Both the position numbers and the translations under genes were made by a program. The notes beneath the pieces were generated by a model. That model did no database searches, was not told the origin of the DNA, and saw nothing but the letters and a program-made list of their open reading frames with translations. A stretch of DNA of 6,619 nt from a bacterium (GTDB taxonomy: Bacteria > SZUA-79 > Acidulodesulfobacterales > Acidulodesulfobacteraceae): positions 1 through 6,619 of the forward strand of contig JAJYZM010000060.1 in the NCBI GenBank assembly GCA_021799935.1, written 5' to 3'. Below are positions 3,613 to 5,400 of this stretch, one piece after another (position 1 is the first letter of the stretch; the number at the start of each line of letters is the position of its first letter).

Positions 3613-5400
3613 ATGAATTTTTCGAGAATTCAAAAAGTTTCGATTAAGATAAAACTGCTTTCTTTAATTTTTCTAATTTTGGTTTTAATGCTGTCTGTTT
3701 TAACTTATTACGCGGTTTTTTACCAGAACAAAATGTCCGTAAAAACGACGTCTTTCGATGCAGTAGTTACCGCGAAGACTATGCTGTCCAGTATGAACGG
3801 CATGATGTTCAACGGTACGTTAGCTAAGAAATCCGACAGGAGGCAGTTGTTCGGCATGTACCGTAAAATTAAAGGAATTAAGTATTTCAAGGTTGTAAGA
3901 AGCAGCATCGTCGATAAAGAATTCGGAGCAGGTTTGAAACAGGAAATTCCTACTTCAAAATTCGACAAAGAAATACTTACTTCGAAAAAAGAGATAACGA
4001 GAGTTTACGAAAAAAACGGGCAAAAATATTTAAAAGTGGGGGTTCCTTTTACGGCGGAAAAGATGTCCCGCGGCATTGACTGCCTTATGTGCCACACCGT
4101 TAAGGCTGGAACTGTTCTAGGCGGCGTCGAGCTTATATATTCTCTAAAGAATACCGTAAACGCTTCAAATATTTTCATGAGAAATATTATTATTTTCTCG
4201 ATTATACTGATAGTTTTATCGATTATAGTAGTATATATTCTTCTTAAGCAGGCTTTTATCAAACCTATCACCGTTTTTTATCGCAGGGTTAAGGATATAT
4301 CTAAGGGCGAAGGCGATTTAAGCAAATTGATCCCTATGGATCGTTTAGATAAGCCGGGAATTATTGCCAAACGCAATAAAAACTGCATGCTTAAAGAAGA
4401 CGAATTAGGAATGAGATGCTGGGATAAGCAGATAGAGCGTTTCGGTGAAAAAGGAGAGCTTATCTGCAAAAAATGTTATGTTTATAAAAATTCCGTTTAC
4501 GACGAAATAACCTCCGTAGTCAACGAGTTCAATAAGTTTATTATCGATATCAGGGAAATAGTAAAATCCATTACGGAAGAAGCTATGACCATAGTTGACG
4601 TCAGCACCACCATAGAAGGACACGTCGATGAAATCAGCAGTAAAGCGCAGGGACAGGCGGAAATTGCCACTCACGTAGCCGCGGCTTCCGAAGAAATGTC
4701 CCAGACTATTAAAGAAATTGCCAAGAATACCCAGAACGTAAGCTCCATCGCAAAAGAAGCGTCGGACAGCGCTAAACACGGCTTCGATATAGTTGAAAAA
4801 TCGATTTCGGGTATTAAAAACGTCGCCGTTCTTACCAAGCAGTTAGGCAGTCTTATAAGCGGACTGGAAAAAAGCTCTTTCGAAATCGGCGAAATCATTT
4901 CGGTGATAAACGATATAGCTGACCAGACTAATCTGCTTGCTCTTAACGCCGCAATAGAAGCCGCCAGAGCGGGAGAATCCGGTAGAGGATTTGCCGTAGT
5001 AGCCGATGAAGTTAGGAAATTAGCCGAAAGAACTGTTAGGGCTACCAAAGAGATAGTATCTAAAGTTCAAACAATACAGCAGAGCACGCAGGACACCAAA
5101 ACATCCATGGATAAAACGTTAAGCGAGGTCGATTTGTCCGTAGGCTATGCTTCAAAGGCAGGCGAATCTTTGGATGGAATAGAAAAAAGCATACTGAGTT
5201 TAACCGACCAGATTGGCTCTATCGCCGCGGCATCGGAAGAGCAGACGGCGGCAACAAACGAGATATCGCGGAATATCGAAACGGTATCCAGCCTTTCGGT
5301 ATCCAATTCCGAAAAATCTTCTAATACCGCTAAAGAGGCGGCATCGATTTACGGAGAACTTGAAAAATTAATAGGAATATTAAAAAAGTTTAAATATTAA
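3613..5400 (+). CDS. Methyl-accepting chemotaxis protein with c-type haem sensor domain
   Basis: This is a 595-residue inner-membrane chemoreceptor. TM1 is about residues 15-37. A periplasmic sensor of about 150 residues follows, with a single CLMCH (157-161), the CxxCH signature for covalent haem c, and then GTVLGGVELIYSL, a PAS/Cache-like closing strand. TM2 is about 191-212. The HAMP region starts at IKPITVFYRRVKDISKGEGDL but is interrupted by a segment of about 50 residues with C258, C269-W270, C285 and C288. It resumes around YDEITSVVNEFNKFI. The cytoplasmic signalling hairpin fills about 315-590. Its highly conserved tip is DQTNLLALNAAIEAARAGE (437-455), which contacts CheA/CheW, and likely methylation segments are ASEEMSQ (359-364) and ASEEQTAATNE (540-550). 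The arms are longer than in E. coli Tar, perhaps the 40-heptad class. There is no C-terminal CheR-tethering pentapeptide; it ends KKFKY. Known haem-c receptors (Desulfovibrio DcrA, Geobacter GSU0935/GSU0582) sense oxygen or redox state, so redox taxis is the inferred role. Confidence 0.95.
   Translation: MNFSRIQKVSIKIKLLSLIFLILVLMLSVLTYYAVFYQNKMSVKTTSFDAVVTAKTMLSSMNGMMFNGTLAKKSDRRQLFGMYRKIKGIKYFKVVRSSIVDKEFGAGLKQEIPTSKFDKEILTSKKEITRVYEKNGQKYLKVGVPFTAEKMSRGIDCLMCHTVKAGTVLGGVELIYSLKNTVNASNIFMRNIIIFSIILIVLSIIVVYILLKQAFIKPITVFYRRVKDISKGEGDLSKLIPMDRLDKPGIIAKRNKNCMLKEDELGMRCWDKQIERFGEKGELICKKCYVYKNSVYDEITSVVNEFNKFIIDIREIVKSITEEAMTIVDVSTTIEGHVDEISSKAQGQAEIATHVAAASEEMSQTIKEIAKNTQNVSSIAKEASDSAKHGFDIVEKSISGIKNVAVLTKQLGSLISGLEKSSFEIGEIISVINDIADQTNLLALNAAIEAARAGESGRGFAVVADEVRKLAERTVRATKEIVSKVQTIQQSTQDTKTSMDKTLSEVDLSVGYASKAGESLDGIEKSILSLTDQIGSIAAASEEQTAATNEISRNIETVSSLSVSNSEKSSNTAKEAASIYGELEKLIGILKKFKY
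4081..4095 (+). other. CxxCH haem c attachment motif in the receptor
   Basis: This encodes C157-L-M-C160-H161. It lies between the two membrane segments, so on the periplasmic side where cytochrome c maturation attaches haem. It is the only CxxCH in the window, and the distal haem ligand cannot be assigned. Confidence 0.85.
4384..4476 (+). other. Four-cysteine insertion within the receptor HAMP region
   Basis: This encodes receptor residues 258-288 with pattern C-x10-CW-x14-C-x2-C, inside an insertion of about 50 residues (about 242-293) between the two HAMP helices. It is cytoplasmic, just below TM2. The spacing could hold zinc, an iron-sulphur cluster or a disulphide switch. This is inference; the four cysteines themselves are read directly. 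Confidence 0.7.

Follow-up and report, generated by a model that had tools for sequence, protein, structure and literature searches.

Among the described systems closest to the receptor analysed here are the haem c chemoreceptors GSU0582 and GSU0935 of Geobacter and the sCache_heme family, which likewise combine a periplasmic CxxCH sensor with two transmembrane helices, a HAMP domain and an MCP domain, as described in PMC8396549 and PMC12889525. The latter source also describes a HAMP-bearing sCache_heme protein in Pseudomonas azotoformans, which may be compared with the paralogue L002 below. How HAMP domains convert membrane motion to kinase control is a long-standing question; as presented in PMC3570549, rearrangement of the connector and HR2 is part of HAMP switching, and the DExG junction is needed for membrane input. 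In CZB zinc chemoreceptors, such as Helicobacter TlpD, the state of a metal site is propagated to the kinase interface (reported in PMC12871147), but CZB is a different domain, differently located, and offers a functional analogy only. The word "insert" is absent from the main text of PMC8396549. By titles and the beginnings of abstracts, we found no paper on a cysteine or other insertion within HAMP, and the name "two-CW domain" (NF045718) was not met in the literature searched, most subscription journals being outside the scope of both searches. The insert described here is of a known kind that is functionally undescribed, and the version in the window looks like a reduced form.

The window, by which we mean the whole stretch of 6,619 nucleotides, carries the receptor gene and its neighbours at the positions given in Table 1. 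Three close homologues of the receptor (P0015, P0028 and P0031) are named Candidatus Acidulodesulfobacterium. The account of the order Ca. Acidulodesulfobacterales in PMC6776010 is of likely facultatively anaerobic, iron- and sulfur-cycling organisms of acid mine drainage, in which flagellar genes are expressed and sulfide oxidation possibly depends on oxygen or redox potential. The genome itself, an 84%-complete assembly, has four places with CheW domains and two MCPsignal matches. In seven of eight loci compared in the window's phylum (L166–L173; the exception is L170), the receptor is preceded by the histidine kinase and the NtrC-type regulator; the acetyl-CoA synthetase follows it in six (not in L167, nor within 1.8 kb in L173), and rho is found upstream in four. 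This order of neighbours fits a receptor locus that is old and mostly stable. No Rfam match was found within the window at gathering thresholds. A short inverted repeat, AACCGC...GCGGTT, was seen by eye at 3556–3578, between the regulator and receptor genes, and is a possible terminator.

Table 1. Features of the window, with the basis of each assignment.
Feature	Positions	Strand	Basis
PAS histidine kinase, conserved neighbour	1000..2154	+	Pfam; phylum locus comparison
NtrC-type response regulator, conserved neighbour	2170..3516	+	Pfam; phylum locus comparison
Chemoreceptor (MCP), 595 aa, third complete gene	3613..5400	+	MCPsignal match
Periplasmic haem c motif CLMCH, residues 157–161	4081..4095	+	CxxCH pattern
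HAMP AS1 and first part of connector, residues 216–242	4258..4338	+	Family alignments; fragment model
Cysteine insert in HAMP connector, residues 243–296	4339..4500	+	Family and joint alignments; fragment model
C258, on third cysteine of wider module	4384..4386	+	41/41 rows of A8
C269-W270, on second CW of two-CW domain	4417..4422	+	C in 41/41, W in 39/41 rows of A8
C285-K-K-C288, CxxC pair	4465..4476	+	Both C in 41/41 rows of A8
HAMP AS2, residues 297–316, starting with the DE of DExG (here DEIT)	4501..4560	+	Alignment; model
MCP signalling domain, residues 379–561	4747..5295	+	Pfam
Acetyl-CoA synthetase-like gene, 26 bases downstream, running off the window	5427..6617	+	Pfam; phylum locus comparison

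The output domain was recognised by Pfam as MCPsignal with 163.7 bits, which identifies the protein as an MCP. The preliminary description had its coordinates and the cysteine residue numbers right: the complete set consists of six cysteines, two (157 and 160) in the periplasmic CxxCH, a motif shared with sCache_heme, and four (258, 269, 285 and 288) in the insert. The sensor region gave no match to the Pfam sCache_heme (Tll0287-like) model PF11845 at E 10, and none by sequence to the PDB, including the Geobacter structures, in a profile search at E 1. A paralogue in the same genome, L002 (L002:1441-2274, minus strand), is a 277-residue protein with a haem sensor of the same kind (48% identity over 3–255), membrane helices and an ordinary HAMP, and it has no output domain. 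A third CxxCH sensor of the genome (L004:232-2175, minus strand) is fused to a GGDEF domain in a protein of 647 residues.

In the family alignment, about 54 residues (243–296) interrupt the HAMP domain of the receptor. The flanking parts retain the HAMP hallmarks by alignment and model, with two helices, a proline and GDL in AS1 and the DE of AS2. AS1 reads P218...GDLSKLIP (GEGDLSKLIPM at its end in the family alignment), while the second HAMP helix, AS2, is Y296-DEITSVVNEFNKFI in the window receptor and begins as YDEITSVVNEFNKFI in the family alignment. No Pfam HAMP (PF00672) reached the gathering score in the split protein; in L002, which has no insert, it was recognised with 52.4 bits. The extra segment that was first proposed to split the HAMP was borne out by the alignment and the model helices, and its span, initially placed at 4336–4491 (residues 242–293), was redrawn slightly. 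Pairwise alignments did not define the boundaries: MAFFT did not open the gap between the receptor and L002 at the right place, and gap-tolerant alignments put it at 254–304, 255–305 or 256–296. Because of these inconsistencies, the boundaries were taken from the family alignments. Residues L236 and I240, which we take to be the HR1-like and HR2-like positions from the G-x-HR1-x-x-x-HR2 spacing, both precede the insert, which is accordingly flanked by HR2 on one side and by the DE of the DExG junction on the other. This is the location, in the connector between GDL and DE, that defines a wider group of two-CW-like HAMP inserts.

The preliminary description had raised the question of whether all four cysteines are conserved together, and they are. 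Alignment A1 was built from 35 of 37 homologue matches, leaving out P0002 and P0003, which are near-identical there to the window protein; P0026, which is chimeric after residue 295, was then dropped, leaving 34 homologues. C269, W270, C285 and C288 are present in all 34, and C258 in all 33 that cover its position (P0037 begins after it). The periplasmic C157 and C160 are kept in 32 of the 34, the other two (P0029 and P0037) being fragments without this region. A fifth cysteine occurs at position 244 in 20 of 33 homologues, where the window receptor has an arginine. At the genomic level, we searched the 30 genomes of the window's phylum, all from one family, and matched the receptor in 26 of them; there was no match in G008, G018, G020 and G024. 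The 25 full-length copies all keep the four cysteines, including the divergent L025 and L026 and also L010, in which one substitution had hidden the copy from the sequence pattern and the cysteines were read directly. Chance or a frameshift artefact was rejected as the origin of the insert, since 25 genomes have it in frame and its gene has conserved neighbours. The remaining copy, in G022 (L027 / L029, G022:C3:126966-127290), is interrupted inside the insert; by eye, the interruption seems to be part of the receptor gene itself in inverted orientation, from an assembly error or a rearrangement.

The catalogued domain that the insert most resembles is two-CW (NF045718), whose defining pattern, judging by its matches, comprises some seven cysteines and two CW dipeptides. 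The window insert has one CW and four cysteines; it shares the RCW...CxxC-x-V/F-Y/F half of the domain, which in L073 likewise sits inside the HAMP connector, but has no counterpart of the first CW or of three of the usual seven cysteines. Neither the insert nor HAMP plus insert matched NF045718 (cut-off 35 bits) even at E 10, the loci L022 and L026 were likewise unmatched, and the insert matched no Pfam model. Among 386 genomes, 33 matched NF045718 at E <= 0.001, 23 of them over the cut-off, and none of these belonged to the window's own family. These absences, together with the three missing cysteines and the weak single-sequence similarities given below, are what one would expect if an unrelated cysteine segment had arisen in the window's phylum at a permissive spot. 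We return to this possibility after the comparison of registers.

Among the 56 NF045718 rows listed, 38 were in frames shorter than 250 residues and 18 in longer proteins. Among the longer proteins and their relatives, a two-CW module separates AS1 from AS2 in the membrane-anchored HAMP of L073, L091, L093, L100, L086, L087 and L076, and lies ahead of an AS2-like helix in L062, L063, L074, L075, L077, L083, L084 and L104–L106; in others, for example L057, L068, L071 and L072, no HAMP is visible. The connector module of L073 scores 42.2, above the cut-off of 35. That of L076 falls short of it, with 27.7, and positions 32–51 of the Pfam HAMP model follow directly.

Relatives outside the family were sought with profiles; word-based protein searches yielded few (three among 18 candidates and five among 65). 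The family profile A5, run over the 386 genomes, matched 37 of them at E <= 0.01, of which 26 were from the family and 11 from elsewhere. Among the latter are L114 (3.5e-9), L118 (3.4e-5), L116 (1.1e-4) and L120 (0.002), chemoreceptors whose HAMP fragment contains seven to nine cysteines. The protein of L114 is identical over the region searched to P0041, which is listed under Candidatus Margulisbacteria. Two other matches, L115 (9.6e-5) and L117 (5.4e-4), are ordinary HAMPs without cysteines; matches near 1e-4 may therefore reflect the HAMP flanks alone, and only L114 is clear. L123 (G139:C9) looks unrelated. There were also seven weaker rows (G242, G139:C13, G218, two of G107, G383:C39 and G154) with E from 0.0016 to 0.0098. 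A search of plasmid records gave a single match, in Aeromonas caviae (E 0.2), which covered mostly the AS1 part and was taken as chance; further plasmid record searches returned no match.

For the reciprocal search we made a profile, A7, from L114, L118, L116, L120, P0042 and P0043, all outside the family and some related to each other. It matched 38 of the 386 genomes at E <= 0.001, 26 in the window's family and 12 elsewhere. The 25 full-length family copies were found with E from 2.2e-5 to 3.6e-10 and the broken G022 copy with 2.8e-6; L115 and L117 were not among the matches at this threshold. In eight of the 12 other genomes (G051, G120, G151, G161, G276, G288, G298 and G383) the match consists of AS1, insert and AS2, with AS2 least clear in G276. 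G070 and G114 have a two-CW module with an AS2-like helix, G293 a two-CW module without a visible HAMP, and G237 a short, doubtful frame. Neither L157, where no HAMP is visible, nor L158, a short frame, was counted as a HAMP insert; the module of L157 (minus strand) is two-CW-like and lies near the N-terminus of a protein that by eye looks to be of the CheA/Hpt type, outside any HAMP. The window's phylum comprises 30 genomes, that of G120 eight and that of G298 two, and G288 is outside all three. Counting the window's own phylum, HAMP inserts therefore occur in four phyla or more. In at least three phyla besides it, a module with six to nine cysteines is found at the same HAMP position of sensor proteins. 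The statement of the preliminary description that comparable CW/CxxC inserts exist in other receptors proved sound, and their attribution to deltaproteobacteria does not necessarily hold.

The inserts of L114, L118, L116, L120, L126, P0042, P0043, L142, L155 and L156 resemble that of the window in their HAMP position and in the core C3, C4-W, C6 and C7. Most of the receptors with six to nine cysteines are MCPs. Unlike the window receptor, they have at least two extra cysteines, mostly a longer segment between CW and CxxC, and other sensor domains. The inserts of L114, L116, L142 and L155 reached no Pfam or NCBIfam cut-off. L114 and P0042 have a CZB domain and P0043 has PF14827; since the module is combined with other sensor domains, its general role is not to accompany haem. 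In L114 (L114:820-3087, plus strand) and P0042, a CZB zinc domain and a cysteine HAMP insert are present in one receptor.

The register of the cysteines was compared in a joint alignment, A8, of 41 rows: 17 from the family (the window's receptor plus 16 of the remaining 24 full-length loci), three intermediates, six of MCP type (M) and 15 of two-CW type (T), of which six are in a membrane HAMP. P0042 and P0043 are absent from A8. In the joint alignments, the third cysteine of the wider module is matched by C258, its second CW by C269-W270 and its last CxxC by C285/C288, and the window insert carries the core C-x(8-10)-CW ... CxxC of the wider group in register. These four cysteines are the only invariant columns over all 41 rows; the tryptophan is kept in 39. 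L155 has phenylalanine at this position and L127 tyrosine. The first two cysteine columns (C1 and C2) hold cysteine in all 24 non-family rows and in none of the 17 family rows. C244 is present in eight family rows and stands three columns before C1. A further cysteine between CW and CxxC does not occupy the same column in M as in T, and L142 and L155 lack it. The non-family rows were found with profiles that contain the cysteines, so their cysteine invariance is partly selected, whereas that of the family is not. Within the 17 family rows, in which pairwise insert identity falls as low as 35%, 12 of 51 insert columns are invariant, including all five C/W positions; five randomly picked positions would all be invariant with P ~3e-4.

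Profile-profile comparison with the two-CW/HAMP sequences, HAMP flanks included, gave E 1.4e-6 and a probability of 90%. Comparisons limited to the insert were calibrated with 300 shuffled-column decoys and 300 decoys in which the cysteines were fixed. The score against T was 25.2, reached by none of either kind; against M it was 20.6 (none of the shuffled-column and three of the cysteine-fixed decoys as high), and against M+T 23.8 (none and one, respectively). The insert-only local alignments span just RCW...CxxCxVYK (28 columns; 10 for M), with C258 outside. Single sequences gave weak similarity: 17 to 678 of 10,000 shuffled decoys scored as high as five family inserts against the M+T profile, 269 to 3,436 of 6,000 as high as three family inserts against M, and 6 to 185 of 6,000 as high as three against T. 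In the opposite direction, with the family profile, the counts were 58 to 1,723 of 6,000 for six M inserts and 22 to 6,098 of 7,000 for 14 T inserts, L073 scoring below most decoys.

An independent origin in the window's phylum fits poorly with the same insertion point, the same register of four cysteines and the tryptophan, the same CxxC-x-V-Y/F ending and the reciprocal profile matches; furthermore, forms with six or seven cysteines and none between CW and CxxC exist (L142 and L155). We consider such convergence rather improbable. Judged by the shared place and register, the reciprocal profiles and the profile-profile test, the window insert is quite probably homologous to the two-CW-type module. 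Common descent of the two is the likely explanation of their resemblance, and the insert likely represents a reduced form of the domain catalogued as NF045718.

Structure prediction for the full-length receptor was poor (pLDDT 60.7). A 103-residue fragment modelled with A8 reached a mean pLDDT of 88.8 and a pTM of 0.75; in ten-residue blocks over the insert, five had a pLDDT of 94–97, and the edges 83 and 91. HAMP and insert are thus predicted to form a compact fold, which matched no PDB chain by Foldseek or VIA-align. DSSP assigned helices to residues 216–231, 247–253, 269–286, 289–294 and 298–316 of the fragment model. The helix at 269–286 was read as one, through G278 and G281; in the poor full-length model it is broken at 278. 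If it is straight, C269 and C285 would be about 24 Å apart by arithmetic, too far for one metal shared within a protomer. The model would leave two cysteine pairs, a kinked helix or a site between protomers.

Two separate pairs are also what a metal-free thiol-disulfide switch would predict, in which oxidation of C258/C269 and C285-xx-C288 under metal stress, peroxide or oxygen would twist AS2. The likely facultatively anaerobic lifestyle of the order and its possibly oxygen- or redox-dependent sulfide oxidation (described in PMC6776010) agree with such a switch. On the other hand, the six to nine cysteines of the fuller module and the CW/CxxC pattern resemble, in our judgement, metal ligands, and we find a purely thiol-based mechanism very doubtful. 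The cysteines would, on balance, be expected to bind metal, or else to act as dithiols.

We favour the reading in which the insert represents a reduced version of a two-CW-type module that was spliced into the HAMP connector, between HR2 and DExG, in several phyla. The fuller module has six to nine cysteines, and the lineage of the window would have kept only the universal four, C3, C4-W, C6 and C7. These probably form a metal-thiolate site, with Zn2+ the most likely ligand partner and Fe or Fe-S possible, either within one protomer or across the HAMP dimer. The module connects AS1 with AS2 at the very junction that converts membrane signals, so that if the site were lost, exchanged or oxidised, AS1/AS2 packing and hence CheA output would be expected to shift. 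The periplasmic haem c sensor would in this way be supplemented by a cytoplasmic input. The module may bias AS1/AS2 in this way. As a whole, a reduced two-CW-type module with a predicted metal site that biases HAMP as an added input is our best explanation, to which we would give an even chance.

The same cysteine conservation would be seen if a permanent Zn2+ on the four cysteines merely shaped the enlarged connector and haem alone drove the receptor. A structural part of this kind would also be expected to occur beside varied sensors and outputs, as the module does, and to have the confident compact fold that is predicted for the fragment. Ordinary HAMPs, including that of L002 in the same genome, need no such clip, however, and the retention of a costly insert across the whole phylum suggests a function; we regard a purely structural role as unlikely. 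That the module is a second input rather than a clip is an assignment we make tentatively, at somewhat less than even confidence.

More broadly, and with greater reserve, the receptors from at least four phyla might constitute an undescribed dual-input class, in which, through a cysteine module in the connector, the metal or redox state of the cytoplasm directly sets the gain of periplasmic sensing; the window's phylum would then have the minimal, four-cysteine version combined with haem c. A natural module at the connector/DExG junction, occurring in four phyla or more, offers a convenient means of probing HAMP switching. If our reading is true, adding, removing or oxidising a small cysteine site should move the switch, and this would suggest a role for the two-CW domain.

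The PAS histidine kinase upstream of the receptor has a cysteine cluster of its own, C-x4-H-x5-C-x6-C, at residues 55–73 in the PAS domain (window 1162–1218, plus strand), which could be another metal or redox site at the same locus. A similar string, CYxxxH...C...C, is present in the PAS domain of L077.
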